The position numbers and the translations under genes are program-made. This document shows positions 27,473 to 56,881 of a stretch of DNA of 64,000 nucleotides, piece after piece. Source of the DNA: Rhodospirillum rubrum ATCC 11170 (GTDB taxonomy: Bacteria; Pseudomonadota; Alphaproteobacteria; Rhodospirillales; Rhodospirillaceae); assembly GCF_000013085.1 (NCBI RefSeq), contig NC_007643.1:846001-910000 (forward strand), in the 5' to 3' direction. The notes beneath the pieces are model-generated. The model saw only the letters and a program-made list of their open reading frames with translations, did no database searches and was not told the DNA's origin. Within the stretch, counting starts at the first letter, position 1, and the number at the start of each line of letters is the position of its first letter.

Positions 27473-29005
27473 TTGAAGACATCCGTTCCCGACACCTCCC
27501 GGGCCGAGCGAGCCGGGGGCAGCGGTCAGGTCGGCGCCCTGTTGCGCGCCACCCGGTTGCGCGTGGGTGAGCCGATCGCACGGGTCGCCGAATCCCTGCG
27601 CATCCGCCAGGGTTATCTGCAGGCGATCGAAGAGGGACGCTATCAGGATCTGCCGGGCGCCGCCTATGCGGTGGGCTTCGTGCGGGCCTATGCCGATCAT
27701 CTGGGGCTTCATGCCGAAGAGGTCGTGCGCCGCTTCAAGGATGAAACCCAAAGCATGGCCCCGGCGGCCACCTTGGAATTTCCCGCCCCGGCCGGCGAGG
27801 GCGGCGTTCCCGCCGGCGCCCTGGTGGCGGTGGCGCTGATCCTGGCGGCTTGCGCCTATGGCGCCTGGTACTGGGTCTCCTCGGCCGAAAAGCCGGTGGC
27901 CGAACTGATCCCCGATATCCCCGACCGTCTGGCCGCGCTGGTCGGGCGCTCGCCCGGTCTTCCCCCCGGACCCAGCCCGGCGGGCGAACCCTTGCCCGTG
28001 GCCCCGCCCCAGGCCGGTCCGAGCGGTGAAAACGCCCCCGCCGATCCGGCGATGGCGGGATCGCCCGTCGAGACCCTGATGCCCGGCCCCGATGACGAGC
28101 CGAGAGGCGCAACCGATCCGACTTCCGGCTTGCCCCTGGTCAGCGCCTTTCCGGTGGCTCCGGTCACTCCGATCGATCAGGGCGCGACCGCCGAGGCCAA
28201 GCCCGACGCCGCCGCGCCCGAACCCCAGGCGGAGGCCTCGTCCCAGCCCGAGCCCGAGGTGCTGGTCTCGCATACGCCCGAAAGCCCGTCGGGGGCTCCC
28301 TTGCCGCCGCCGCCCCGGGGGAATGCCGTCGACGAGGAGCCGGCGCCGCCGCCCGTGGTCGCCGCACCGCCGAAAACGCCGGCCGAGCCCGCCGTGACCG
28401 TCGTTCAGCGCCCCGAGCCGGCGCGGCCGGCTCAGCCCACCCCCGAGCCGGCGAAGCCGGCGCAGCCGACCCCCGAGCCGGCGAAGCCGGCGCAGCCGAC
28501 CCCCGAGCCGGCGCGGCCGGCGCCGTCGACCCCCCCATCGCCGCCCGCCGCTCCGGCGCCGAGCGCCGCGCCTTCGCCCCAACCGGCGCCGCCGCCCGCC
28601 GCTGGTCCGGCGGTGTCGCCCCCCGCCCCCATCGCCGAAGCGGTCGCTCCGCCGCCGCCACCGCCGGCCGAGGAGGCCACGCAGGCGCCCCGTCAAGAGT
28701 CCGTCGTGGGTCAGCCGGCGTCGGGTGAGGTGGCCCGTCAGGCCCAGACCTCGCGCATCGTCCTCAAGGCGGCGAGCGACAGTTGGATCCAGTTGCGCCG
28801 CGATGGTGCCCTGGTGGTGCGCCGCCTGTTGCGTCAGGGCGAGGTCTATGCGGTGAGCCAGCCCGAGGGGCTAACGTTGAATGTGCTCAACGCCGGGGCC
28901 CTTGAGGTTTATGTCGATGGCGTGCGCGCGCCGTCGCTCGGACCGGTGGGTGGGGTCAGAAACGATATCCGCCTGGATGCGAACAGGTTGAAATCCGGGC
29001 GCTGA
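27473..29005 (+). CDS. rodZ: RodZ-like helix-turn-helix membrane protein with DUF4115
   Basis: Cytoskeleton-linked cell-shape protein of about 510 residues. The N-terminal HTH_25 domain is GALLRATRLRVGEPIARVAESLRIRQGYLQAIEEGRY. One membrane segment lies near residues 115-135 (ALVAVALILAACAYGAWYW). A very long Pro-rich periplasmic linker contains tandem PTPEPAKPAQ units. The C-terminal DUF4115 domain is RIVLKAASDSWIQLRRDG onward. TTG 27473 with GAGGA just upstream is chosen; GTG 27440 is an alternative. RodZ upstream of ispG and hisS is a common order in this class. Confidence 0.82.
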   Translation: MKTSVPDTSRAERAGGSGQVGALLRATRLRVGEPIARVAESLRIRQGYLQAIEEGRYQDLPGAAYAVGFVRAYADHLGLHAEEVVRRFKDETQSMAPAATLEFPAPAGEGGVPAGALVAVALILAACAYGAWYWVSSAEKPVAELIPDIPDRLAALVGRSPGLPPGPSPAGEPLPVAPPQAGPSGENAPADPAMAGSPVETLMPGPDDEPRGATDPTSGLPLVSAFPVAPVTPIDQGATAEAKPDAAAPEPQAEASSQPEPEVLVSHTPESPSGAPLPPPPRGNAVDEEPAPPPVVAAPPKTPAEPAVTVVQRPEPARPAQPTPEPAKPAQPTPEPAKPAQPTPEPARPAPSTPPSPPAAPAPSAAPSPQPAPPPAAGPAVSPPAPIAEAVAPPPPPPAEEATQAPRQESVVGQPASGEVARQAQTSRIVLKAASDSWIQLRRDGALVVRRLLRQGEVYAVSQPEGLTLNVLNAGALEVYVDGVRAPSLGPVGGVRNDIRLDANRLKSGR

Positions 29006-35670: not shown

Positions 35671-36582
35671 ATGAAAAACGCGAACTCCAGGGGCCGTCCC
35701 CGCGGGCGCAGCATGAATGGCAAGCGCCCGCCGAACCGCAATCAGGTTTTCGACAGCAATGGTCCCGGCGTGCGGGTGCGGGGCAATGCCCAGCAACTGG
35801 TCGAGAAATATCTGGCGATGGCCCGCGATGCCTCGTCGCAGGGAGACCGCATCCTGGCGGAGAACTGCCACCAGCACGCCGACCACTACCAGCGCGTTCT
35901 CAACGCCCTGACCGGCCGTTACATCCGTCCCGAGGATCCCAATCAGGGTGGCGCCTATGGCGAGGACGAGGATTTCGGCGACGACGACGATTTCCGCGGC
36001 CCCCGCGACTATCAGCCCGATTACCAGCAGCCCGACTATCGCAGCGATTATCGCGAGCCCCGCGCCGAGGCCCGCGAGCCGCGCGAGCCGAGGGAAACCC
36101 GCGAGCCGAGGGAGCCGCGTGAAATCCGCGAGCCTCGCGAACCCAGGGATAACCGCGATACCCGCGAGCCGCGCGAGATCCGCGAACCCAGGGAGCCCCG
36201 GGAAGCCAGGGAGACCCGCGAGCCGCGCGACGGTCGCGAGCCCCGGGAACCGCGTGAGCCCCGCGAGGTGCGCGAACGCCGCCCGCGCCGGGAGCCCCGT
36301 CCCGCCCTCGAGGCTCCGGCCGAGGTCCAGCTTGCGCCAATCGCTGAGGCCGCCGTCGACGCCAGCCCGAAGGTCGATGTCGCCGTTCCCGCCGCCGCCG
36401 TCGAGCCGGTGCCGGCCGAGCAGCCGGTGATCGCCGTCGAAGGCGACGAGGAAAAGCCCCGGGCCAAGGCCGAGCGGGCGCCGCGCCGCCGCCGTCGTCC
36501 GGCCGCCGAGATCGCCGCCGAGGCCGAGGCCGAGGCCGAAGGCCAGGGCGGAGATGCCAGCGAACAGACCATCCCCGCCTGA
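35671..36582 (+). CDS. DUF4167 protein with Arg-Glu-Pro repeat tail
   Basis: Protein of 303 residues from ATG 35671; ATG 35635 would add 12 residues. The N-terminal DUF4167 domain is clear: [20 protein letters not shown], then [42 protein letters not shown]. From about residue 125 to 215 the chain is a run of REP, REI, RET and RDN units, followed by an Ala/Glu-rich tail with a basic RRRRRP patch. Function unknown. The basic N-terminus and charged repeats suggest nucleic-acid or ribosome binding (inference). Confidence 0.85.
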
Positions 36583-43754: not shown

Positions 43755-44321
43755 ATGTCCGCTTCCGATACCGCCCTGCTGGTGATCGACGCCCAGGAGT
43801 CCTTTCGCCACCGCCCCACTTGGCACGAGGGCGACGTCGCGCCCTTCGTTGATCGGCTTCAGGCGCTGATCGATGGGGCGCGACGCCGGGACATTCCCGT
43901 CGTTCAGATTTTCCATATCGACGACGAGGGGCCCTTCAGCCAAGCCTCGGGCCATGTGGTGACCCTGGCGCCGCTGACCCTCGCCCCCGACGCGGTCTTT
44001 CGCAAGCGCCGCCACAGCGCCTTGATCGGCAGCGGGCTTGACGTCTGGCTGATCAGCAAGGGCGTTCGTCGGATCATCGTCGCCGGCATTCGCACCGAGC
44101 AGTGCTGCGAGACGACGACCCGTCACGCCTCGGACCTTGGCTATGACGTTGATTTCGTCAGCGAGGCGACCTTGACCTTCGCCATGACCGATGCCCAGGG
44201 CCGGGTATGGAGCGCCGAGGAGATCAAGGCCCGCACCGAGCTGGTTCTGGCCGACCGCTTCGCCCGCATCGCCACCGTCGAGGCGGCTTTGGCCGGTCCC
44301 CTGGTCCCCGCCGCCCGATGA
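43755..44321 (+). CDS. Isochorismatase-like cysteine hydrolase
   Basis: Hydrolase of 188 residues. The triad Asp-Lys-Cys is visible: LLVIDAQESFR, VFRKRRHSALIGS and IRTEQCCETTTRHASDLGYDV. Substrates of this fold include isochorismate, nicotinamide and other amides; the sequence does not decide. The stop overlaps the start of the GlxA-type regulator, which may respond to the same metabolite. Confidence 0.88.
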   Translation: MSASDTALLVIDAQESFRHRPTWHEGDVAPFVDRLQALIDGARRRDIPVVQIFHIDDEGPFSQASGHVVTLAPLTLAPDAVFRKRRHSALIGSGLDVWLISKGVRRIIVAGIRTEQCCETTTRHASDLGYDVDFVSEATLTFAMTDAQGRVWSAEEIKARTELVLADRFARIATVEAALAGPLVPAAR

Positions 44322-45334
44322 CGGCCGCCGCCGCCGGACCCGAGGAGGTCGCCGTCTATGTCGTGCTGCCGCCGCGCGTGCTGCTGCTCGATGTCGCCGG
44401 GCCGATCGAGGTGTTGCGCAAGGCCAACCTTGAGCAGGACCGGCTACGCTTCGTGGTGCATTACGTCGGTCCGGCGGCGACGGTCTCGAGTTCCATCGGC
44501 TTGGAGGTGGCCGGGGTGGCGCCCTTGCCCGATACCCTGCCCGAGGGCGCCCTGGTGGTGATCGCCGGAAGCGCCGCGGTGACGCTGGGGGCGGTCCCCG
44601 CCAACCAAGCCGACGACGCCGCCAAGGACGCGGCCATCGTTGATTGGTTGGCCCAAAGGGTGCGTCCGGGGATCGGCCTGATATCGATCTGTTCGGGCGC
44701 CTTGCTGGCGGCGCGGGCTGGTTTGCTTGATGGCGTCGCCTGCACCACCCATCACGCCTGCTGCGCCGAGCTGGCCCGGCTGGCGCCCAAGGCCCGGGTC
44801 GTGGAAAACCGCCTGTATGTCGAGGATGGCGAGCGGCTGTCGAGCGCCGGCGTCACCGCCGGCATCGATCTGATGCTTCATCTGGTGGCCCGGCGCATCG
44901 GCCCAGCCTGCGCCCTGGCGGTGGCGCGCTATCTGGTGCTCTATCTGCGTCGCGGGCCGGGCGATCCCCAGCTTTCACCCTGGCTGGAAGGCCGCAATCA
45001 CCTGCACCGGGCCATCCACCGCGCCCAGGACGCCGTGGCCGCCGATCCGGCCCGGCCATGGAGCCTGGGCGATCTGGCCGAGGTCGCCGCCATCAGCCCG
45101 CGCTCGTTGTCGCGGCTGTTCAACGACCAGGTCGGAATGAGCGTGACCGATTATGTCAACCGCCTGCGCATCGCCCTTGCCCACGACATCCTGACGGCGA
45201 CCCGGCTTGATATGGAAGCCGTGGCCGAACGCGCGGGCTTTTCCTCGACCCGCCAGTTCCGCCGCGCCTGGAGCCGCCTGCACGCCCTGCCGCCAAGCCG
45301 AACCCGCCCCGTTGGTAAAGTGGAGCAGGGGTGA
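44318..45334 (+). CDS. GlxA-type AraC regulator with DJ-1/PfpI domain
   Basis: Transcription regulator of 338 residues. The N-terminal DJ-1/PfpI-like domain has the elbow GLISICSGALLAARAGLLDGVACTTHHAC. The C-terminal AraC domain has two helix-turn-helix units (WSLGDLAEVAAISPRSLSRLFNDQVGMS and DMEAVAERAGFSSTRQFRRAWSRLH). ATG 44318 overlaps the hydrolase stop. Relatives control nitrogenous-compound catabolism; the ligand here is unknown. Confidence 0.9.
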   Translation: MTAAAAGPEEVAVYVVLPPRVLLLDVAGPIEVLRKANLEQDRLRFVVHYVGPAATVSSSIGLEVAGVAPLPDTLPEGALVVIAGSAAVTLGAVPANQADDAAKDAAIVDWLAQRVRPGIGLISICSGALLAARAGLLDGVACTTHHACCAELARLAPKARVVENRLYVEDGERLSSAGVTAGIDLMLHLVARRIGPACALAVARYLVLYLRRGPGDPQLSPWLEGRNHLHRAIHRAQDAVAADPARPWSLGDLAEVAAISPRSLSRLFNDQVGMSVTDYVNRLRIALAHDILTATRLDMEAVAERAGFSSTRQFRRAWSRLHALPPSRTRPVGKVEQG

Positions 45335-45665: not shown

Positions 45666-46574
45666 ATGCGAACGAGGCGCCTGGGAAAGACCGCGCTGCG
45701 CGCGTCGCAGGTTGGTCTGGGCACATGGCCGCTGGCGGGCAATGCCGGCTTGGCGGGCTATGGCGCCGTTGATCCCGAGCGGGCCGAAGCCACCGTTCGC
45801 GCCGCCCTGGCGGCGGGCATCACGCTTTTCGATACAGCGGGCATCTATGGCGATGGGTTCGCCGAAAGTCTGTTGGGGCGGCTGCTTCCCGGCGGCGAGG
45901 GGGGGGCGGTCGTGTGCACCAAGGGGGGCTTCTCGCATTTCGCCCAGGGCAGGGCGCCCGACCGCCGCGCTTTCAAGGCCGAGGTGGCGGCGAGTCGTGA
46001 TCGCCTGCGCCGCGAGGTGATCGACATCTATCTGTTGCATAACCCGCCGCCCGTCCTGATCGGCCTGCCCGACGTTTACCGCCCGCTGCAAGACCTGCGC
46101 GATCATGGGTGGATCGGCCATATCGGCGTTTCCGTCGCCCGCGCCATCGATGGCTGGCTGGCCCTCGACCGCCCCGAGGTCGAAGTGGTGCAACTACCCT
46201 TTAACCTGCTTAATACCCAGGCCGATCAAGGGCTTCTAAGCCGGGCCGCCGATCTGGGCAAGGCGGTTCTGGCCCGTGAGGTTCTGGCGAACGGCTGGTT
46301 GTCGGGACGCTATGGCCCCGCATCGACCTTCGCCGCCGGGGACTTCCGCCAGCATCTGCCGGCCGAGGTCAAGGCGGCCATCGCCGGCGATCGCGCCGCC
46401 CTTGAGCCCTATCGCCGCCCGGGCGAAAGCTGGGTGGATTTTTCGCTGCGCTTCGTTCTCGACCGTCCAGAAATTTCCAGCGCCATCGTCGGGGCGAGAC
46501 ATCCCCAGCAGATCGAGGCGCTTTCAAAAGCCGGTACCCTGTCCCCCTCGCCTTCGTGGCACCCGGCGGACTGA
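45666..46574 (+). CDS. Aldo/keto reductase
   Basis: NAD(P)H-dependent oxidoreductase of 302 residues. The tetrad is visible: Asp and Tyr in FDTAGIYGDGFAESLLG, Lys in VVCTKGG and His in DIYLLHNPPP. The C-terminal cofactor region is SSAIVGARHPQQIEAL. It ends 45 bases before the repeat-peptide gene on the same strand, so it may be the first gene of that operon. A role in peptide tailoring is only inferred from position. Confidence 0.88.
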   Translation: MRTRRLGKTALRASQVGLGTWPLAGNAGLAGYGAVDPERAEATVRAALAAGITLFDTAGIYGDGFAESLLGRLLPGGEGGAVVCTKGGFSHFAQGRAPDRRAFKAEVAASRDRLRREVIDIYLLHNPPPVLIGLPDVYRPLQDLRDHGWIGHIGVSVARAIDGWLALDRPEVEVVQLPFNLLNTQADQGLLSRAADLGKAVLAREVLANGWLSGRYGPASTFAAGDFRQHLPAEVKAAIAGDRAALEPYRRPGESWVDFSLRFVLDRPEISSAIVGARHPQQIEALSKAGTLSPSPSWHPAD

Positions 46575-46619: not shown

Positions 46620-47921
46620 ATGGCGGACCCAAGAAATCCTACTGGCCCCTTCGCTTCAAGCCCACGCGGCCCCTTCGCCGTCAGCCCGCGCGGTCCTTTC
46701 GCGGTCAGCCCGCGTGGCCCCTTCGCGGTCAGTCCGCGCGGTCCTTTCGCGGTGAGTCCGCGTGGCCCCTTCGCGGTCAGTCCGCGCGGTCCCTTTGCGG
46801 TGAGCCCGCGCGGTCCCTTCGCTGTGAGCCCGCGTGGCCCCTTCGCCGTGAGTCCGCGCGGTCCCTTCGCGGTGAGTCCACGTGGTCCCTTTGCGGTCAG
46901 TCCTCGTGGTCCCTTCGCGGTGAGCCCGGGGCAGGAGGCTTCATCCGCCCTGCGCAATGAGGCGGCCCAAAGTCCGCGCGGTCCCTTCGCGGTGAGCCCG
47001 CGCGGCCCCTTCGCCGTCAGCCCGCGCGGTCCTTTCGCGGTGAGTCCGCGTGGCCCCTTCGCCGTCAGCCCACGCGGTCCTTTCGCGGTGAGCCCGCGTG
47101 GCCCCTTCGCCGTCAGCCCGCGCGGTCCTTTCGCCGTCAGCCCACGTGGCCCCTTCGCCGTCAGTCCGCGTGGCCCGTTCGCGGTCAGTCCGGGGCAGGA
47201 GGCTTCGTCCGCCCTGCGCAATGAGGCGGCCCAAAGTCCGCGTGGCCCCTTTGCGGTGAGCCCGCGTGGCCCCTTTGCGGTGAGCCCGCGTGGCCCCTTC
47301 GCCGTCAGCCCGCGTGGCCCCTTCGCCGTCAGCCCGCGTGGTCCTTTCGCCGTCAGCCCGCGTGGCCCCTTCGCCGTCAGCCCGCGCGGTCCCTTCGCGG
47401 TGAGCCCGCGTGGTCCCTTCGCGGTGAGCCCGCGCGGTCCCTTCGCCGTGAGCCCGCGCGGTCCCTTCGCCGTGAGCCCGCGTGGTCCTTTCGCGGTGAG
47501 CCCACGCGGTCCCTTCGCCGTGAGTCCGCGCGGCCCTTTCGCGGTTAGCCCCACTGGTTCGGCGCCGGCCGAACAGGCGGGGCCCGCCGATCCGTTCCAG
47601 GGGCTTCCCGAGCCGGTGCGCCGCGCGGCGCTGCGCGAGGTTCTGAACGCCCGGCCCCAGCGCGCCACCGACATTTTCTATGAAGACTCCGACCTTGTTT
47701 ACGCCATGCGCAACGGCATCCAGTACGTCTTGTCCTCGCCGGTCAGTCAGGTCTGGCGCCGGTTGGGCGACGACACCCTGGAAGCGATTTTGGACGCGGT
47801 GGCCGAAGAACTGAACCTGGAAGATGCCAGCGCTCTGCATGGCGAGGTTGTGCGCGCCCTGCTTGCCGCCGAAGCCGCCGGGCTTCTGGTGCTCTATCCC
47901 AAGGAGCCCGAAGAGCTCTGA
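46620..47921 (+). CDS. Octapeptide-repeat protein with C-terminal PqqD-like domain (candidate RiPP precursor)
   Basis: Unrecognised 433-residue protein. ATG 46620 is chosen because GGAGG lies five bases upstream. After MADPRNP and a degenerate TGPFASSP come 11, 9 and 13 exact copies of RGPFAVSP (33 in all), separated by two identical 16-residue spacers GQEASSALRNEAAQSP. Residues 312-433 are non-repetitive; about 350-428 (YAMRNGIQYVLSSPVSQVWR, then helices and EAAGLLVLYPKE) has the strand and helix order of PqqD and other RiPP recognition elements. Three radical SAM genes follow. I infer a multi-core precursor whose recognition domain is fused in cis; a structural repeat protein is the alternative. 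Confidence 0.75.
   Translation: MADPRNPTGPFASSPRGPFAVSPRGPFAVSPRGPFAVSPRGPFAVSPRGPFAVSPRGPFAVSPRGPFAVSPRGPFAVSPRGPFAVSPRGPFAVSPRGPFAVSPGQEASSALRNEAAQSPRGPFAVSPRGPFAVSPRGPFAVSPRGPFAVSPRGPFAVSPRGPFAVSPRGPFAVSPRGPFAVSPRGPFAVSPGQEASSALRNEAAQSPRGPFAVSPRGPFAVSPRGPFAVSPRGPFAVSPRGPFAVSPRGPFAVSPRGPFAVSPRGPFAVSPRGPFAVSPRGPFAVSPRGPFAVSPRGPFAVSPRGPFAVSPTGSAPAEQAGPADPFQGLPEPVRRAALREVLNARPQRATDIFYEDSDLVYAMRNGIQYVLSSPVSQVWRRLGDDTLEAILDAVAEELNLEDASALHGEVVRALLAAEAAGLLVLYPKEPEEL
46665..47552 (+). repeat. 24-bp tandem repeat array encoding RGPFAVSP
   Basis: Blocks at 46665-46928 (11 units), 46977-47192 (9) and 47241-47552 (13) are divided by 48-bp spacers at 46929-46976 and 47193-47240 that differ by one silent base. 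The amino acids never vary, while all eight codons show silent changes, for example Arg CGC/CGT, Val GTC/GTG/GTT, Ala GCC/GCG/GCT and Pro CCG/CCA/CCT. Confidence 0.95.
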
Positions 47922-47960
47922 TCGGTCCTTGACCGAGAAACGCGAACGGGGAGGTGATCC

Positions 47961-49472
47961 GTGGGCTGGCAGGGACTAAGCGGCATTGTTCCTCTTGGCG
48001 GGCAAGCGGTGTGCTTGGCCTTGCCGCCCACGCCTTTCGCGCCGGGGCCGACCCGGCTTGTCGCCACCCTGGCGCTTGCCGATACCGCCTTGCCGATCGC
48101 CACCTGGGACTTTCTTCTGGCAGCCACTTCCGGCGGCCAGACCCCCGGTGGCCAGATCCTCGTCTCGCCGGCATCCTTCGATCAGGCCTTTCTTATCCTT
48201 GATCACCCCGAATCGCCGCCCTTGGGTCGGGTTTATCATCTGGCGGTGCCGCCGCCCGCCACCAAAGGGTTTGATCTGGTCTTGCGCCGCTCGGGCGGCG
48301 GGGGCGAGAGCTTTGCCCATTACCGCTTGCACTGGCCCGACGAGGCGTCGCGGATCCGTGATCTGGAACGCTGGCGGCGTCAGGCGGTGCCGCCGGTTGA
48401 TTGGTTCTATGTGGAACTGACCTCGCACTGCAATCTCGCCTGTCCGTTTTGTCCCAGCCGAACGCTCAAGCGCCCCCGCGCTTTTCTCAGCGAGGACCAT
48501 GCGCGGCTGATCTTTTCGAAAATCGCCGATTATGGCCGGCGGCGCGATGCCACCTGGGGCTATACCCAGACCGAGCGCATGGTGTTTTTGCATGTCATGG
48601 GAGAACCGTTGCTCCATCCGCGCTTTACCGAGATCGTCAGCGCGGCGCGGGCCGTGGGGCTGGTGCCCGGGCTGTTCACCAACGCCACCCTGCTCAACGC
48701 CAAGGCCCGCGACAAGATCTTCGCCAGCGGGCTGAGCCATATCACCATCAGCCTGAACGTCACCGATCAGGCGGGCTACGCTGAATTGGGGGCGCGCGGG
48801 CTGATCGACGAGCAGGAACGCCGCGTGCTTGATCTGTTGGCCGAGCGCAAGCGTCGCGGCGCCCACCGCCTGCATGTCGATATTCAATATATCGTCGCCG
48901 CGCCGCGTGCCGAGGGGGGAAGCTCCGGCGGGCCGGTGGCCGGGCGGGGTTTGGTCGACTCACGCCACAAGGCCTGGGCCAGCTATCGCACATGGTTGCT
49001 GCGCCTGCGCCATCTCGATCCCCAAGGGCCGGTCGGCGCCCCGCCCGCCATCGATCCCCGGCCATCGATCGCCTTTGAAACCCTGCTCCATCCTTTGGCC
49101 GATGATACCGGCGATCCCAGCTTGCGCTTGCCGCTGGACGGGGGCGTCGATCTGGTGATGAAGACCGGGTGCTCCTTTGGCAATGCGGTGATCCCGCCCG
49201 GCCACAGGGTGGTTCCCGCCAGCCAGGGCCGCTGTCCGTTCAGCAGCCCCTGGCGGCAGATGGCGGTCTTCGTCGATGGCCGCGTGTCGTTTTGCAACAT
49301 GGATTACGAAAACTCGGTCGATCTCGGCTCGCTGCTCGACTCGTCGGTCGACGAGATCTGGGACGGCGCCCGTTTGCGGCGGATCCGCGAGGAGATGGCC
49401 GCCGACCGCCTGAGCGAGCCGCTCTGTCAACGCTGCCTTGGAACCCTGGCGCCCATGGCCGGTCCGGCTTAG
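47961..49472 (+). CDS. Radical SAM protein with SPASM-like C-terminus
   Basis: 503-residue radical SAM enzyme. GTG 47961 follows GGGGAGG at good spacing. The SAM-cluster motif C157-x3-C161-x2-C164 (CNLACPFC) sits after an unusually long N-terminal region of about 145 residues that I do not recognise; it could bind the precursor peptide. The C-terminus has a SPASM-type region: CPFSSPW, VFVDGRVSFCNMDYENSVDLGSL, EIWDGARLRRIREEM, LCQRCLG. It starts 39 bases after the repeat-protein gene. Probable peptide-modifying enzyme; the reaction is unknown. Confidence 0.85.
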   Translation: MGWQGLSGIVPLGGQAVCLALPPTPFAPGPTRLVATLALADTALPIATWDFLLAATSGGQTPGGQILVSPASFDQAFLILDHPESPPLGRVYHLAVPPPATKGFDLVLRRSGGGGESFAHYRLHWPDEASRIRDLERWRRQAVPPVDWFYVELTSHCNLACPFCPSRTLKRPRAFLSEDHARLIFSKIADYGRRRDATWGYTQTERMVFLHVMGEPLLHPRFTEIVSAARAVGLVPGLFTNATLLNAKARDKIFASGLSHITISLNVTDQAGYAELGARGLIDEQERRVLDLLAERKRRGAHRLHVDIQYIVAAPRAEGGSSGGPVAGRGLVDSRHKAWASYRTWLLRLRHLDPQGPVGAPPAIDPRPSIAFETLLHPLADDTGDPSLRLPLDGGVDLVMKTGCSFGNAVIPPGHRVVPASQGRCPFSSPWRQMAVFVDGRVSFCNMDYENSVDLGSLLDSSVDEIWDGARLRRIREEMAADRLSEPLCQRCLGTLAPMAGPA

Positions 49473-49510
49473 GGCGCTTCCCTTCCTCGTCATTGCTTAA
49501 GGACGCACAG

Positions 49511-50965
49511 ATGGTCGACATTCTTTTCGTCAGTCCGCCCACGCCGTCCCCGGAAGAACATGCCGGATATAACCTCAACGCCCCGCCGCTCGGCATCGGC
49601 TATCTGGCGGCCATCCTGCGCGAGAACGGCTTCGAGGTTGACGCCATCGATCTGGCCTTTTCCGATAAGCCGGTCGCCGATCTGCGCCAAAAGCTGCGCG
49701 AAAGCGATCCCCGGGTGGTTGGCTTCTACACCACCACCGTCACCTATTACGGCACCGAGCGGCTGCTGGCGGCCGTGCGCAAGGACCATCCCGAGGCCAT
49801 AACCTGGGTTGGCGGACCGCATGTGTCCTATGAATACGAAACCGCGTTGGCCTCCTCGGGCTTCGACGTGGTGTTCCTGTTCGAAGCCGAGCATTCGGTG
49901 CTGGAAGCGGCCAAGGTTCAGTTGCGCGGCAAGGGCAGGCTTGACGACGTCGCCGGCATCGCCTTTCGCCGTGACGGCCGCACCATCAAGACCACGCCGC
50001 GCGCCCGCGAGAAAAGCCTCGATATCTTTCCCTATCCGGCCCGCGACCTGTTCCCGATCAAGAAATACACCCGCCCGGGATCGATCATGAGCAGCCGGGG
50101 CTGCCCGGTGAAATGCATCTTCTGCATCGCCAGCACCTTTGAAGACGCCTATCGCTATCGCAGCCCCGAAAACGTCGTTGGCGAAATGAAGCTGATGTAC
50201 GAGCAATGGGGGATCAACGACTTCTATTTCGTCGATAACGTTTTTACGACCTATCGCGCCCGCGCCCGGGAAATCTGTCGGCTGATCCGCGAGGCTGATC
50301 TGCCCATCGGCTGGTACTGCGTTTCGCGGGTTGATTACGCCGAGCCCGAGCTGATGCAGGATCTGGCCTCGGCCGGCTGTTATCGCATCGAACTGGGCGT
50401 GGAATCGGGGGACCCGAGCGTTATCGGCGGCATGAAGAAGCATATCTCGCTGGCCCATGTGTACCGCGCCGCCGATGTGATCTTGAACCTGGGCATGCAG
50501 CCGATGTTCACCTTCCAGGTCGGCCATCCCCATGACACGCTGGACTCGATCGAAGCGACCCTGCGGCTGGCCGAGGAGATCCGCGAGATGGGGGCGGGGG
50601 CCTATCTGTCGGTGACCACCCCCTATCCCGGGGCGCCGATGATGATCGAGCGCGAGAAATACGGCATCGTTCTGGAAACCACCAATTGGGAGGATTTCCG
50701 CTGGAGCAATCCGACCTATCGCACCGCCACCCTCAGCCGCAACGATATCCGCAAGGCGATCTATCGCGGCGCCGTCGGCATGGCCCGCACCCTGGCCGAG
50801 GGCAAGTTCCAAGATCCCCCCTCGGCGCCGTGGCTGCGCTTCGGACCCAATGGCAATGGCATGAGACTGCCGCCGCCGCCAAAATCCAGGTCCGACGACG
50901 ACACGGCGCTGTTTAGCGTTCCCGATCGCAAAAGGACCTTGCCGGTGCTGCAGGTGGCGCGATGA
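49511..50965 (+). CDS. B12-binding-domain radical SAM protein
   Basis: 484-residue class B-type radical SAM enzyme. Residues 1-135 form a cobalamin-binding-like fold (DILFVSPPTPSPEE, NAPPLGIGYLAAILRENGFEVDAIDL, WVGGPHVSYEYE), without the DxHxxG motif of base-on B12. The SAM-cluster motif C198-x3-C202-x2-C205 is in SRGCPVKCIFC, then FYFVDNVF and GVESGDPSVI. Such enzymes methylate or cyclise unactivated carbons in natural-product pathways. AAGGA precedes ATG 49511. Its stop overlaps the start of the third radical SAM gene. Confidence 0.88.
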   Translation: MVDILFVSPPTPSPEEHAGYNLNAPPLGIGYLAAILRENGFEVDAIDLAFSDKPVADLRQKLRESDPRVVGFYTTTVTYYGTERLLAAVRKDHPEAITWVGGPHVSYEYETALASSGFDVVFLFEAEHSVLEAAKVQLRGKGRLDDVAGIAFRRDGRTIKTTPRAREKSLDIFPYPARDLFPIKKYTRPGSIMSSRGCPVKCIFCIASTFEDAYRYRSPENVVGEMKLMYEQWGINDFYFVDNVFTTYRARAREICRLIREADLPIGWYCVSRVDYAEPELMQDLASAGCYRIELGVESGDPSVIGGMKKHISLAHVYRAADVILNLGMQPMFTFQVGHPHDTLDSIEATLRLAEEIREMGAGAYLSVTTPYPGAPMMIEREKYGIVLETTNWEDFRWSNPTYRTATLSRNDIRKAIYRGAVGMARTLAEGKFQDPPSAPWLRFGPNGNGMRLPPPPKSRSDDDTALFSVPDRKRTLPVLQVAR

Positions 50966-52026
50966 TCCTTTCCCCTGCGCCCTCCGATCCCCTTTTGCCA
51001 CCGCTTCAGCTGTTTTTGGAACTGACGACGCGCTGCAATCTGCGCTGCCGTCACTGCTATATCCGGGCCGGCGAAGGCGAGGCCCGCGACCTGCCGGCAA
51101 GCGATGTCCAGGGATTGCTTGGCGAGTTTCAGGCGATGGGCGGCGAATTCGTGTCGTTCAGCGGTGGCGAGCCGACGCTCTATGGCGAGTGGCGGCCGGT
51201 GATGCGCTATGCCCGCTATCTTGGCCTGGAAGCGATGCTGGTGACCAACGGCGTCGCCTTGAGCGAGGGCGACATCGGCTTTCTTGACGAGATCGGCGCC
51301 AGCATCGCCGTCAGCCTGGATGGCGCCAGCGCCGCCGTTCACGACGCCATCCGTGGGCGCGGCAGTTTTGAGCGCACCGGCCGGACGCTTGAGCGCCTCG
51401 GCGCCGCCGGCCTTGGCGGGCGGGTGACGCTGTGCTTTACGCCCTCGGCGGCCAATTGCGCCGATCTGCCCGGCGTCGTCCGGCTGGCCGCCGATCTTGG
51501 TCTCGGCACCGTTTATGTCTCGCTGCTTGAACAACGTGGGCGGGCTGGCGATGTCATCGATCAACTGTCGCTGGGGCCGGCCGAACGCCGCGCCCTGATC
51601 TTCGCCATGGCGTCGTTGCAGGAGCGCTACCCCGAGATCGCCCTGGAATGCCTGAACTTGCGCTATTTCACCGAACGCCTGCGCGGGTATGCCATCAGCG
51701 GCGATAGCCTGGACCGCACGCTGCGGGTCACCGCCGAGGGTGCCCTGGTGCTGACCGCCTATCTGGACGACGCCCCCTTTCAGCTTGGTCCCTATGCGCC
51801 CGGGACGCTTGATCGGCTGTGGTGGGGCGACAAGGTGCGCGCGGCCTTTGCGGCGGCCGACCAAAGGGCCCAAACCGTGGCCGAGTGCCAGGAGTGTATC
51901 GCTTGGCCGTGGTGCCAGGGCGGCAGCGCCGCCTTCGCCTGGACCGCCCACGGCCGTTTTGACGCGGTGGACGGCTTTTGCGCGGCCAAGCGCGATGTTC
52001 TGCGGGAAATGGCGGGGGGCTGGTGA
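50962..52026 (+). CDS. Radical SAM/SPASM peptide-maturase-like protein
   Basis: 354-residue radical SAM enzyme. C25-x3-C29-x2-C32 (CNLRCRHC) is near the N-terminus, with FSGGEPTLYG and SLDGASAAVHDAIRG as SAM and substrate landmarks. The C-terminal SPASM domain ends with CQECIAWPWCQGG and GFCAAKRDVLREM, the layout of many RiPP maturases. ATGA overlaps couple it to the B12 radical SAM gene before it and the HesB-like gene after it. Confidence 0.88.
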   Translation: MILSPAPSDPLLPPLQLFLELTTRCNLRCRHCYIRAGEGEARDLPASDVQGLLGEFQAMGGEFVSFSGGEPTLYGEWRPVMRYARYLGLEAMLVTNGVALSEGDIGFLDEIGASIAVSLDGASAAVHDAIRGRGSFERTGRTLERLGAAGLGGRVTLCFTPSAANCADLPGVVRLAADLGLGTVYVSLLEQRGRAGDVIDQLSLGPAERRALIFAMASLQERYPEIALECLNLRYFTERLRGYAISGDSLDRTLRVTAEGALVLTAYLDDAPFQLGPYAPGTLDRLWWGDKVRAAFAAADQRAQTVAECQECIAWPWCQGGSAAFAWTAHGRFDAVDGFCAAKRDVLREMAGGW

Positions 52027-52340
52027 TGAGCACGACGGCAACAACCATTCGTATAACCGAACGCGCCGCCCGCAAGGTCGATGAATTCCATCTGCGCGGC
52101 GACCTCGACCCGACGCTGGCCATCCGCCTTGACGTGGTCGGCGGCGCCGCCTCGGGCATCGCCTATGACCTGTACTTCGATCAGGTCGACGGCGACGATC
52201 AGGTCTTTGAAAGCCAGGGCCTGCGCATCGCCATCCGCCCCCGGCATGCCCCCTGGCTGTTGGGCAGCACCGTGGATTGGGTTGAAAGCGACAACGGCGC
52301 CGGCTTCCAAGTCCTCAACCCCAACGTCCCCCCGCAATAG
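52026..52340 (+). CDS. HesB/IscA-fold protein lacking all cysteines
   Basis: 104-residue protein. IRITERAARKVDEFHLRGDLDPTLAIRLDVVGGAASGIAYDLYFD and VDWVESDNGAGFQVLNPN follow the A-type iron-sulfur carrier fold. The three cluster cysteines of the family are absent: VVGGAASG replaces GGCSG, and the C-terminal CGCG tail is missing. It cannot hold a cluster in the usual way. Translational coupling to the third radical SAM gene suggests a structural or substrate-binding role in the same pathway. Confidence 0.8.
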   Translation: MSTTATTIRITERAARKVDEFHLRGDLDPTLAIRLDVVGGAASGIAYDLYFDQVDGDDQVFESQGLRIAIRPRHAPWLLGSTVDWVESDNGAGFQVLNPNVPPQ

Positions 52341-52718: not shown

Positions 52719-55700
52719 TTGATTTTGACGGAAGTATTGGATGTGAGCGCTGCCCCGGGAGAAGCATTGCTACGAGATTCGTTGGCTCGTGGGGTGCCGC
52801 TCGTCGCTTTGTTGGGGCAACATGCTGGATGGTCTGCTGGACTCGATCCAGTCTTGTCGCTTGCACTCAAGAAACTAACAAAAGAGCCCAGCAAAGGTTG
52901 GAAGGCTTTACTGTCCCGGGAGCAGCATCCGGAGCATTTCGATTCGTGGCTTGAAGAGCGTTTCGCGCGCCGGGCACCGTCCTCCGATCAGATCGCTATT
53001 GCAGACATGCTCGTGAGTGCTGTTTTCACGTCGTCGATCGATCCCGGTTGGTCCAACCTGATAGCGGCAGGAGGACGTGAACCCGAAACAATCTTGATCG
53101 GCGACCCTTTGCCTCCAATCGTGCGGAGCAAGCGGCGACCACCAATATTCTATCTGTTCGGACGAGCTGGAGCGGGGCCACTGGAGACGCGCCCTCCGAG
53201 TACGCGTCAGTTATTGGTCCAGCGTCGGCTTCGTCATTCGGCGAACATGCTTCGAAACGTTCTTGAAGTGACTACGCCGGTCGGGCTGATCGTTATTGAG
53301 GGATATGATCCCGCGCACGACTGGCTGAAGGCGGAGGAACTGCTTGCGGTTCTCAGTGCTGCCCCGGTTGGTGGAGTGCTATGGTGCGGTGGCGATCCCG
53401 AATTCGCGGAAGATGACCAGGAAACATTCGACCAGCTCGTCAGGAACGGGATTATCATCCGTGACGATCGCTCCCTCGCACAGATAGCTACGGAGCTTCG
53501 AGCTAGCTCTGAAGAGATGGCTACTCCAAACTGGGACGATCCCGACCTCGTAACGTTACCGAACGGAAAACAACTGGTTACCTCGCCACGTTTGCGTCTC
53601 ACGACTCAAGCGTCAGCGCTCATCCTGGACGACTCGATCACGGGCTTTCTGCCACCTCTCCAATCGGCACTTGCACAGAACGCTTTCGAGAATTTTCATA
53701 GTATTCCAAGCGGGTTGCGCGCCCGCTTGGAAGGAGTACGTCGGGGTTTCACTATTGAACGTGATTTCGAGCGACACCTCCAAGCCCGGTTAAAGAAAGC
53801 ACTCGAGCGACATCATCGAGAAGCTGGCGCTATAATACTTCATGGGCAGTCTGGGACAGGAAAGTCCATAGCCTTGGCCCGCGCGGCATTGCAGGTGCGG
53901 ACAGATAGCCTCACCGCTGTCCTATTCGCTACCGACCGCCAGCCTAACCCTGCTGACGTGTTAGCGTTCCTGACGCAAGTGGATCACCTTGGTGCGACCA
54001 CGCTGATCGTGGTCGATGTTCCTTTGCCGCCAACACGTTTCGACGAGTTGTTGAAGGAATTCCGGAGTAAAGGGCGCCGTGTAGTCATTCTCGGCGTCTC
54101 ATATCGTATTGAAGAACAGATTACTCGCGGCAACGACCGCTATATTGAGGCTCCCAGACGATTGACGCAGGGAGAGCAGGAAAAGCTCGCGGCGTTGGCT
54201 GTTGAATATAACGTACCTAGTAAACTGTCTATCGACGAACCGTATGCGCTTGCTCGTTTTTACTGGCAACTTCCTGGTAGTCGTCGCCTTTTGGCGCATG
54301 GTTTGGGCAAAGAAGCCCGATCTTCGCAGACGTCGATTGCCAAGCAGGGAGGGAATACTCAGATCGCTCGGGCCGTCACTGCCTTGGGTATGGCCCTTAT
54401 GCAGGCTGGGTACAAGGGTGAGACCTCAATCATCGAAGATGTGTCATCTCAGGACGTCGAGGGCGCTTCGTCCGCCGCTAAGGTCATCGACTACATCATG
54501 GCGGCAGCGAGACTGTATAAATCCGTACCAGTGAATCTAGTTTTGCGGGCGATTCTCAAGGATCGAGTATCGGAAGGTACTGCGTTTGGCATTGATCTAG
54601 TTCACGGCGTCTTCAGAGATCAGGATTTGTTCCGTTGGCACTATGGAGATGAGAGCGGCGAGGAACTGCTCGTAGGTGCCCGGCTTCAGCTTGAGGCGGA
54701 GTTGATCTGCAACTTACGCCTCGGCGGTCCAGTAGAGGAGGCATCGAGGCTGATCGAGTTGATTTCCCAGTCTTATCGGGCAGGCTCTGAGGACAACGAA
54801 GAAACGAAGTTTGTAACCGATATCGTGTACGCTCTTGGTCCTGATGGCCCGTTTGGGGAGCGATACAAGGACAGCTACGTCGATATCGCTCGAGCCCTGA
54901 CAACTCTCCGAGAAAAGAACGGCGTTATGAGCGCGCGGTTGATGCTTCAGGAAGCAACTCTGCGTCGCCACTACATCCGCACACATGAACTCGAAGTGGC
55001 TGATAAGGAGCGGATTTTAGATGAGGCTAGCAGGTCGGTGGATTATGCACTGAGGCTGATTGGGCAGTCCGGGGCACAACGGCTATATGCGTCTCGCAGG
55101 ACACAGGAGAATTTGTGGGTCGAGCGGGCGGCAACCTACGGCTATCTCGCAACCGATGCAGCACAACGCAACGCGAGCGCTGAAGAAGTTTGGTCAAGCT
55201 ATCGCGCTGCGCGCGAAGCGGCGGAGATGGCTGTTGGACGTGTCGACACGTATTTTCCTTTAGATATCGCGCTTTGGATGCCGTTGAGGGTGTTGAAAAA
55301 CGGCAAGCAACTCGGCGAACTTGAACGCCGGGAGATCGAAGCGGATGTTCAGGCAACTCTCGACATAGTTGATTCCGCAGCGCTAGATCCTGATCAGCAA
55401 GAGCGTTTCCAAAGGCAGCGCTTTAATCTTGGCGGTGTGCTGGAAGACAAACCTCTGAGCGACGAAGCTTTTGGGGAACTGGAGCGATTGGGTTCCACTG
55501 CGGGCTACTATTTGCGGGCACGCGAGATGGCGCCAGCCAAACCGGAAGCAGGCGACAGGGCAGATAAGTCCCATATTGCGGCTGCCGAGAAGGCACGTAA
55601 CTATCTCTGGTTGTATTTTGAGAAGGTGCATTCAGACGCGCGCTGTCTCTGCCTTTATCTGAATTGCGAATGGACAGTCGCGACCGGCCGGTGGCTGTTC

Positions 55701-56156
55701 CGAGGCACAAGACAGCCACTTCCGACCAGTGACGAGACGCTCCATCGCCTTCACATTGTGGTTACCGATCTTCTCGCGTTAGGCGAAGCGCATACGCAGC
55801 CTCGCTACAGGTATCTCGAATGTGTACTCCGCTGGCTCACGGGTAGTGAGGGTGAAGCTATCGCGGCTTGGAGGCGCCTCGCTTCGGATACCGACTACGT
55901 AGAGGGTGACCGGGTTCTGAACAGGCACACTGTATATTCAGAGCAGGGGGAACTGCGTCTTTTTTCGGGAATCGTTAAACGTCAGATAGGCAGTGGCAGA
56001 TGGTCCGTATACGTGCCGAGCCTCAGGCGGCATGTCGATCTTGTCGAAAGTCGCAGGCAGGCGGGTACGATTGCCATCGGCCAAGTGATGAACGGCTTTT
56101 CTATATCCTTCAACTACATTGGCCCGATCATAGATTACGGCGCTGAGGGCGCCTGA
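52719..56156 (+). CDS. Large P-loop NTPase, STAND-like, with possible SIR2-like N-terminus (candidate defence protein)
   Basis: 1145-residue protein, not firmly recognised. Residues 1-270 have a Rossmann-like layout (VPLVALLGQHAGWSAGLD, IFYLFGRAGAGP, PVGLIVIEGYDPAHDWL) reminiscent of divergent SIR2-like domains of defence proteins. Walker A GQSGTGKS is at about 376-383 and a Walker B-like TLIVVDVP follows. The rest is an alpha-helical repeat-like region, ending in a small beta-rich domain (GRWSVYVPSLRRHVDLV). Codon use is less GC-rich than in the neighbours. The start (TTG 52719) is uncertain. Overlaps the next gene by one base. Confidence 0.6.
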   Translation: MILTEVLDVSAAPGEALLRDSLARGVPLVALLGQHAGWSAGLDPVLSLALKKLTKEPSKGWKALLSREQHPEHFDSWLEERFARRAPSSDQIAIADMLVSAVFTSSIDPGWSNLIAAGGREPETILIGDPLPPIVRSKRRPPIFYLFGRAGAGPLETRPPSTRQLLVQRRLRHSANMLRNVLEVTTPVGLIVIEGYDPAHDWLKAEELLAVLSAAPVGGVLWCGGDPEFAEDDQETFDQLVRNGIIIRDDRSLAQIATELRASSEEMATPNWDDPDLVTLPNGKQLVTSPRLRLTTQASALILDDSITGFLPPLQSALAQNAFENFHSIPSGLRARLEGVRRGFTIERDFERHLQARLKKALERHHREAGAIILHGQSGTGKSIALARAALQVRTDSLTAVLFATDRQPNPADVLAFLTQVDHLGATTLIVVDVPLPPTRFDELLKEFRSKGRRVVILGVSYRIEEQITRGNDRYIEAPRRLTQGEQEKLAALAVEYNVPSKLSIDEPYALARFYWQLPGSRRLLAHGLGKEARSSQTSIAKQGGNTQIARAVTALGMALMQAGYKGETSIIEDVSSQDVEGASSAAKVIDYIMAAARLYKSVPVNLVLRAILKDRVSEGTAFGIDLVHGVFRDQDLFRWHYGDESGEELLVGARLQLEAELICNLRLGGPVEEASRLIELISQSYRAGSEDNEETKFVTDIVYALGPDGPFGERYKDSYVDIARALTTLREKNGVMSARLMLQEATLRRHYIRTHELEVADKERILDEASRSVDYALRLIGQSGAQRLYASRRTQENLWVERAATYGYLATDAAQRNASAEEVWSSYRAAREAAEMAVGRVDTYFPLDIALWMPLRVLKNGKQLGELERREIEADVQATLDIVDSAALDPDQQERFQRQRFNLGGVLEDKPLSDEAFGELERLGSTAGYYLRAREMAPAKPEAGDRADKSHIAAAEKARNYLWLYFEKVHSDARCLCLYLNCEWTVATGRWLFRGTRQPLPTSDETLHRLHIVVTDLLALGEAHTQPRYRYLECVLRWLTGSEGEAIAAWRRLASDTDYVEGDRVLNRHTVYSEQGELRLFSGIVKRQIGSGRWSVYVPSLRRHVDLVESRRQAGTIAIGQVMNGFSISFNYIGPIIDYGAEGA

Positions 56157-56881
56157 TGTCATTCGAAGCTTTGATTCAGTCAGCGGATAGATTGAAGGCT
56201 ACACTCCACGCATCGACTGGAAGGCATCTCCTAGCCGATGTAAGCTTGGATGCGCCGGGCGATAGTCAAGGCGAGGCGGCGTTCATCAGGTCAGTCTTAT
56301 GGTGCTACGTCTTGTGGTTTGAGGCATTCCAGCCAGCGGGCCGTTACCTGATGAATATCGTCCGTAACTCTTCACCCGAGGATCAGAAGGCGGCTTCGCG
56401 AGCCTTTCAGGACGTCCAGAATCTTCGTACCTTCCATACTCACAATCTTCTACCGTCGAGCAAGAGTGATCAGCACAAGCTTAACCAAGCGAAGGCGTGG
56501 CTAGCTCAGAACGGTGGCACCGAGAGCGACTGGGACCGATGCACTTTAAAATTGTGTTCGGGGCTGACGGCCGCGCTCGACATTCTTCATGTCCACTGGA
56601 ACCGCGTAACCGCCTCTCCAGAAGATGCTTTCACGGCGATCCAAATGCTAATCGACGCGTTAGAGCGAGAATGGGAGCCACACCTGTTCGACCATACGAT
56701 AGAGGAAGCCGCAATGTCGCTCGGATTATCCGGCTTTGACGTAGTGAAGTACAGAGGAACTCGGCTTGAGGACTGGCGTGGTATAACCGGACTCTTCTTG
56801 GATAGAAAAAGCGCTGAAAATGCCGTTCGCCGTGTCATTTATCAGGAAATGGCGATTAAATTTGGCCCGGCTCAAAATTAA
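56156..56881 (+). CDS. Small helical protein with HEPN-like RxxxxH motif
   Basis: 241-residue mostly helical protein, not recognised by family. R91-x4-H96 in NLRTFHTHNLL, inside a helical context, matches the catalytic RxxxxH of HEPN ribonucleases. A single motif is weak evidence. It is coupled to the large NTPase (TGATG overlap), so the pair probably forms one sensor-effector unit. Base composition matches the NTPase gene, not the flanking genome. Confidence 0.5.
   Translation: MSFEALIQSADRLKATLHASTGRHLLADVSLDAPGDSQGEAAFIRSVLWCYVLWFEAFQPAGRYLMNIVRNSSPEDQKAASRAFQDVQNLRTFHTHNLLPSSKSDQHKLNQAKAWLAQNGGTESDWDRCTLKLCSGLTAALDILHVHWNRVTASPEDAFTAIQMLIDALEREWEPHLFDHTIEEAAMSLGLSGFDVVKYRGTRLEDWRGITGLFLDRKSAENAVRRVIYQEMAIKFGPAQN

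Follow-up and report, generated by a model that had tools for sequence, protein, structure and literature searches.

The stretch of DNA analysed here (the window) comprises 64,000 nucleotides of Rhodospirillum rubrum ATCC 11170 (contig NC_007643.1, positions 846,001 to 910,000), and our subject is a cassette of six genes within it, all on the plus strand. In order, they encode an aldo/keto reductase (AKR), a tandem array of octapeptides ending in a domain that resembles the recognition element (RRE) of ribosomally synthesized and post-translationally modified peptides (RiPPs), a first radical S-adenosylmethionine (SAM) enzyme (rSAM1), a B12-binding radical SAM enzyme, a third radical SAM enzyme (rSAM3) and an IscA/HesB-like protein. 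The gaps along the cassette are 45 (AKR to array), 39, 38, -4 and -4 bases. With a probability of roughly two in three, we read the cassette as a radical SAM system resembling those of RiPPs, in which the substrate carries its own RRE, the FAVSP cores are likely modified and the product stays intact in the cell. An earlier note on this DNA had named the array, three radical SAM genes and a HesB-like gene, the latter four following the array on the same strand, and all of these stand; it had overlooked the AKR as a cassette member and, within the array protein, the spacers, the imperfect first unit and the RRE-like domain at the C terminus. The features, in window coordinates, are as follows.

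45666..46574, plus strand: AKR, 302 amino acids (aa) (Pfam Aldo_ket_red, E = 5.3e-38)
46620..47921, plus strand: array-RRE protein, the candidate precursor, 433 aa (start ATG at 46620, preceded by GGAGGA)
46641..46664, plus strand: imperfect first unit, TGPFASSP (from the translation)
46665..47552, plus strand: array of 33 exact RGPFAVSP units in blocks of 11, 9 and 13
46929..46976, plus strand: spacer 1, 16 aa, GQEASSALRNEAAQSP (from translation and spacing)
47193..47240, plus strand: spacer 2, peptide identical to spacer 1
47607..47918, plus strand: predicted C-terminal RRE-like domain, 104 aa modelled, motif PQRATDIFYED (from the predicted structure)
47961..49472, plus strand: rSAM1, radical SAM/SPASM protein, 503 aa, with a beta-rich N-terminal region (residues 1-125)
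49511..50965, plus strand: B12-binding radical SAM protein, 484 aa (Pfam B12-binding, E = 3.6e-21; Radical_SAM, E = 1.7e-21)
50962..52026, plus strand: rSAM3, radical SAM protein, 354 aa (Radical_SAM, E = 1.7e-21), overlapping the previous gene by 4 bases
52023..52340, plus strand: IscA/HesB-fold protein, 105 aa, ending soon after NPN (Pfam Fe-S_biosyn, E = 3.8e-8)

The array protein and its C-terminal domain

Translation from 46620 bears out the earlier count of 33 exact RGPFAVSP units in one gene. This count hides little, since the sole imperfect unit in register is the first, and Tandem Repeats Finder scored the array at 580, 824 and 822 for periods of 24, 48 and 72. The units are spelled by 23 DNA versions, and every one of their 1,854 pairwise differences (1,854/1,854) falls in codon position 3. 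Of the single changes that can be made to a unit, 20/72 are synonymous, and a minimum of 13 changes explains the codon variety; under a simple model with all changes equally likely, 13/13 synonymous changes would arise without selection with p ~6e-8. The confinement of the differences to third positions therefore indicates that each unit is kept at the protein level. From each exact unit followed by Arg, trypsin would release GPFAVSPR, with a calculated [M+H]+ of 830.452 when unmodified. The array protein begins with MADPRNPTG, which, judged by eye, is unlike a signal peptide. The gene seems prone to miscalling, as one database protein (P0069) is a 189-aa piece of it called from an internal GTG, and long frames on the opposite strand overlap the array (46665-47552). 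Further tandem repeats lie in the window at 36060-36277 (periods of 18/27/45/54 bp) and 28411-28534 (21/30 bp).

The C terminus of the array protein is predicted to fold as an RRE/PqqD domain, by which RiPP precursors are normally bound. It is like the PqqD/RRE domains in predicted fold and topology, but the sequence match is weak, staying under the cut-offs of Pfam PF05402 (19.2 versus 23.4 bits) and of NCBIfam TIGR04353 (HPr-rel-A PqqD; 24.4 versus 35 bits). A profile of the domain (A3, 12 sequences, leaving out the database proteins P0068, which is the same as the Rhizobium stretch L096 described below, P0069, P0072 and P0080) found no match among PDB sequences. A protein search with the C-terminal region of the window protein alone (residues 336-439) returned nothing, and the search succeeded with a profile of array plus RRE (A2). 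Known PqqD/RRE domains are discrete or sit on an enzyme, whereas the one in the window is a C-terminal fusion to the array itself. Passages of three RRE papers (PMC12710340, PMC7470986, PMC10036551) present RREs as stand-alone proteins or as fusions with enzymes or other domains, and none of these passages has an RRE joined to the precursor.

The cassette enzymes and the surrounding genes

The CxxxCxxC motifs at residues 157 (rSAM1), 198 (B12 enzyme) and 25 (rSAM3) are present as the earlier note had reported, and so is the complete lack of cysteine in the HesB-like protein. Our Pfam and NCBIfam scans used longer frames for the array (from TTG 46602), the B12 enzyme (49490) and the IscA-like protein (51978). 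In Pfam, rSAM3 gave no SPASM match and none of the three radical SAM proteins gave a PqqD match, and none of the best 25 NCBIfam models listed per cassette enzyme reached its cut-off. The modelled beta-rich region of rSAM1 (window 47961-48335) recurs in the majority of the relatives aligned; the structural comparison list for this protein spans residues 141-497. PADLOC matches of rSAM1 to pVip (E = 2.6e-12) and of the B12 enzyme to PDC-M51A (E = 1.2e-6) were set aside as reflecting shared radical SAM cores.

Among NCBIfam models the B12 enzyme comes nearest to ApyD (NF050148), and at 147 bits against a cut-off of 750 we do not place the enzyme in that family. ApyD is reported to methylate the beta-carbon of Tyr, and the two are alike in combining B12-binding and radical SAM domains and in having a peptide substrate with an aromatic residue; ApyD itself, however, contains an RRE, and its substrate and its neighbours (MNIO, P450) differ from those in the window (PMC11117315). 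For rSAM3 the best NCBIfam model is the mycofactocin maturase MftC (TIGR03962, residues 13-342), an identity that we reject at 105.6 versus 265 bits and with no mycofactocin precursor or partner recognised in the cassette. The IscA/HesB-like protein falls by sequence in the family of A-type proteins (IscA/ErpA), with matches to HI1723 (E = 3.8e-12) and to the IscA-like DsrR (PDB 2k4z, E = 1.5e-4), but it has no cysteine at all, nor do its counterparts at the two related loci described below (L016 and L096), and the cluster-binding cysteines of A-type Fe-S carriers (IscA/ErpA/HesB) are thus absent. DsrR presumably lacks the cluster-binding cysteines as well.

The six genes are likely co-transcribed, because terminator-like sites are rarer here than in shuffled sequence: the scan gave 3 of them (5.7 in shuffles), one in the 3' end of the AKR gene (46415-46437). 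The same scan gave 2 promoter-like sites (1.0 in shuffles), none upstream of the AKR gene. Rfam and tRNA scans of the window found nothing. Neither a peptidase nor a transporter or exporter is among the cassette genes common to the window and L096, and no other candidate precursor was seen in the cassette.

Downstream, at 52719-56881, lies a gene for a 1145-aa nSTAND NTPase protein (Pfam nSTAND_NTPase5, E = 3.6e-10), whose stop overlaps the start of a gene for a 241-aa protein with no Pfam match; the two are possibly a defence-like pair, and the pair gave no PADLOC match. Upstream of the AKR, at 43755-45334, an isochorismatase-family gene is followed by one for a DJ-1/PfpI-AraC type regulator, and this pair is probably unrelated to the cassette, since it is not annotated beside the Rhizobium cassette.

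Relatives and distribution

The cassette recurs on the Rhizobium acidisoli plasmid pRapFH23a (L096), with AKR-array-RRE, rSAM1, B12 enzyme, rSAM3 and IscA-like protein in the same order as in the window. Identities to the window are 62% for the B12 enzyme, 44% for rSAM3, 39% for the HesB-like protein, 38% for rSAM1, 37% for the RRE and 36% for the AKR. In L096 the AKR, the array, (NMAMSPRGAFAVTP)x12, and the RRE form a single open frame, in which an internal Met after the AGGAAAGAGG stretch could serve as an alternative start for the array alone. The 12 units are nearly identical DNA, in 2 versions (L096 8066-9994). On its sequence, the AKR is a member of the cassette, fused to the array in this species: with the fused Rhizobium AKR as query, the window AKR comes up at E = 6e-46 and the runner-up in the window's genome only at 3e-4, and the fused and the window AKR share D56, Y61, K86 and H125, which we take to be the catalytic tetrad of AKRs. 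pRapFH23a was typed as a conjugative plasmid, and this location suggests that the cassette has been transferred.

A third locus, in a Rhodospirillales metagenome-assembled genome (MAG; L016), has array-RRE, rSAM1, B12 enzyme, rSAM3 and IscA-like protein in the order of the window; its contig begins inside the array, so that the AKR position lies beyond the visible sequence. Among the 80 loci listed in a scan of genome contigs, L016 is the sole close one (68%), the others being partial and at 22-40%. A motif scan of the retrieved loci found the array only in the window's genome, in L016/L110 and in L096.

A protein search with the array+RRE profile matched 13 proteins (P0068-P0080) among 8,000 scored candidates; in this search, as in that for rSAM1 (7,994 candidates), scoring covered the sequences with the most words in common with the query. 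One of them, P0080, was dropped as unrelated and lacking the RRE, and P0069 is the window's own fragment. Of the 11 others, 4 have contigs (901-1298 bp) that could not accommodate rSAM1. The other seven are on longer contigs, and for 5/7 the longest contig is exactly equal in bp to that of an rSAM1 relative: P0068/P0029 (671287 bp), P0073/P0018 (2653 bp), P0074/P0016 (15288 bp), P0076/P0025 (13338 bp) and P0078/P0011 (12564 bp). Equal size is an indirect but specific sign of linkage between array and rSAM1, and for P0068 the linkage is confirmed on DNA (L096). The remaining two are P0071 (4902 bp), which is unmatched, and P0072, the Rhizobium AKR of L096 with one unit only, which may mean that the length of the array varies or that short-read assembly collapsed the repeats. 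The earlier note had named arrays regularly found without a radical SAM neighbour as the case that would refute it, and this case was not observed.

The number of core units per array-RRE protein ranges from 33 down to 1, with none in P0078 as called. To describe the core we anchored on the leading R-G alone, so that the Phe was not presupposed, and left P0069, P0072 and P0080 out of the count. Taken as distinct within each of 10 proteins, 15/16 R-G-anchored 8-mers read F-(A/G)-(V/I/M)-(S/T/M)-P, with F in 15, A in 14 and G in 1, V/I/M in 11/3/1, S/T in 14 and M in 1, and P in 15; the lone exception, RGPEGGGF, is a linker. P0074 instead carries R-A-G-F-A-V-T-P and P-A-N-F-A-V-M-P. In P0068, P0071, P0073, P0075 and P0076 the repeat is longer, its second half being, for example, FAYSD, FAASP or MAMSP, and F-(A/S)-x-S-P starts resembling TGPFASSP occur in P0070, P0076 and the L096 array. 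The residue before the Arg of the unit is Pro in 7/10 proteins and Asp (once Ala) in P0071, P0073 and P0079. Cysteine is absent from the array part of 11/12 proteins, and the single one, in P0071, lies outside its units.

The cassette is rare and scattered. The rSAM1 search gave 62 database matches at E<=0.001, among which the close relatives are P0006-P0033 (28, the window's own included); the matches include Thiodiazotropha and Desulfococcus multivorans, neither of which was found again among the DNA loci, and from P0034 onward the matches are at <=30% identity or partial. The rSAM1 profile (A1) was built from 27/62 matches, excluding P0030 and P0034-P0067. Across the order, where the best 4 (rSAM1) or 10 (array/RRE) candidates per genome were scored, rSAM1 was matched at E<=1e-40 in 7/317 genomes, 2 of them true members (the window's, G000, and G563, whose contig is equal in length to that of L016), and the array/RRE profile matched 2/314 genomes, the same two. 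The five other, far weaker Rhodospirillales matches (L124-L128; E = 2e-50 to 8e-57) were dropped at 22-25% identity. Their rSAM1-like open frames encode 585-786 aa, one with a profile match at E = 4.6e-52, and the fetched stretches hold no AKR, array, RRE, B12 or HesB match at E<=1e-3; as judged from these stretches, the distant genes stand in a different setting.

In samples of the class and the phylum, rSAM1 was found in 1/385 and 1/398 genomes, both times in the window's own, and in a class centred on a gammaproteobacterial MAG in 0/369 genomes at E<=1e-60, a search that had no positive control and so carries no weight. Among 41 relatives, 21 were matched at E<=0.001, the best outside the window's own genome at 1.3e-14. 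In the second genome of the genus the B12 gene is missing (1/2 matched). Among plasmid records, Rhizobium rSAM1 reached a coverage of >=80% only in R. acidisoli itself (1/14 records), and the B12 enzyme of the window matched 161 records, of which that of R. acidisoli alone is at 60-80% identity and the rest are at <60%. A scan of viral contigs gave 12 weak radical SAM relatives and 0 with the motif array.

A probable radical SAM RiPP-like system and its alternatives

As in radical SAM RiPP pathways, a precursor-like gene stands beside radical SAM genes, at three loci (L016 being partial) and, by equal contig size, in 5/7 relatives, and it has a conserved core motif (15/16 8-mers). A leader peptidase or exporter, frequent but not universal in RiPP clusters, was found neither in the window nor in L096. 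The multi-core substrate proposed in the earlier note remains the best reading of the array, in view of the three loci, the relatives' contigs with rSAM1 and the predicted RRE. We regard the cassette as a variant of radical SAM RiPP logic and not as a member of any named family; an open-access literature search for the motif strings returned no paper, and we found no description of a modified product of this kind. The nearest published case that we found is TvgA/TvgB of Halomonas anticariensis, in which TVGG repeats are converted to cyclopropylglycine by a radical SAM enzyme (PMC9062424). The likeness is that a short motif containing Val is repeated in tandem in the substrate and that, as we propose for the window, a radical SAM enzyme acts on the repeated units. 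There, however, the motif is TVGG and the enzymes are one radical SAM protein, a dioxygenase and two peptidase/transporter proteins (PMC9062424), whereas the window has F-A-V-x-P, three radical SAM enzymes (one B12-binding), an AKR, an IscA-like protein, an RRE-like domain on the substrate and no exporter in the cassette. With motif and genes differing, we do not count the cassette as a member of that system.

Array, RRE-like domain and enzymes are co-encoded, and their order is kept in a distant bacterium. The RRE on the substrate would substitute for the leader-binding domain often carried by such enzymes; none of the three radical SAM proteins gave a PqqD match. By gripping the array close to the enzymes, it would allow a single binding event to serve for the processing of many units. 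By analogy with ApyD, the B12 enzyme would C-methylate a carbon of low reactivity, with the nearly invariant Phe as the most likely site, and rSAM1 and rSAM3 might oxidise or cross-link the neighbouring residues Ala, Val/Ile and Ser/Thr. Since cysteine is absent from the units, thioether chemistry is unlikely, and a sactipeptide or ranthipeptide identity was rejected on the same ground. The AKR could reduce a carbonyl made in the array or use the modified array, and the cysteine-less IscA-fold protein may act as a protein partner and not as the usual cluster donor. The product would be retained inside the cell as a polymer of protein size bearing many modifications, because neither an exporter nor a peptidase is encoded in the cassette and the N terminus is unlike a signal peptide.

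Some observations weigh against an uncut product and would suit a classical multi-core RiPP, with the units modified, excised at the Pro-Arg boundary and released as short peptides. Pro precedes the Arg of the unit in most of the proteins (7/10), so that the boundary is partly conserved, identical units with spacers suit excision, and the authors of the TvgA study expect several small products from the repeats (PMC9062424). The cassettes of the window and L096, however, hold no peptidase or transporter, although a host protease could act in trans; Asp, or once Ala, takes the place of Pro in P0071, P0073 and P0079, and in Rhizobium the array shares its frame with an enzyme. We therefore consider excision unlikely, though worth keeping in mind. 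Somewhat more speculative still is a protein-bound poly-cofactor, in which the FAV-x-P cores would become redox-active or reactive groups on an uncut, self-docking polymer, with the AKR as its dedicated partner; the principle would be that of pyrroloquinoline quinone (PQQ) or mycofactocin, but with the cofactor remaining on the chain in many copies.

The array might instead be a docking scaffold that binds many copies of an enzyme or of the IscA-like protein, with the real substrate elsewhere. RRE proteins are able to serve as enzyme-recruiting scaffolds according to one paper (PMC7470986), and the constancy of the units at the protein level would fit a binding motif too. Yet one short core is strictly conserved beside three chemistry-specific enzymes, the cassette offers no other precursor candidate and relatives with a single core exist, all of which makes a scaffold improbable. 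That the array is merely a repetitive structural or low-complexity protein adjoining radical SAM genes is very hard to believe, for although tandem repeats are easily generated and the 12 copies in Rhizobium hardly differ in their DNA (2 versions), the order is common to three loci, 5/7 relatives have equal-sized contigs, array and rSAM1 co-occur in one pair of genomes of the order and the RRE-like domain is on the repeat protein itself.

If a radical SAM RiPP-like system with a self-docking substrate is the correct reading, the cassette would invert the logic of radical SAM RiPP pathways by placing the RRE on the substrate and not on the enzyme, with up to 33 equal cores per polypeptide. The window array, from a bacterium used as a laboratory organism, would then be a system in which to study the processing of long repeat substrates by enzymes, and it could show what an AKR and an IscA-fold protein without cysteine contribute when peptides are modified. 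As the units yield one tryptic peptide, it would also be a simple test system for the chemistry of B12-binding radical SAM enzymes on unactivated carbons.

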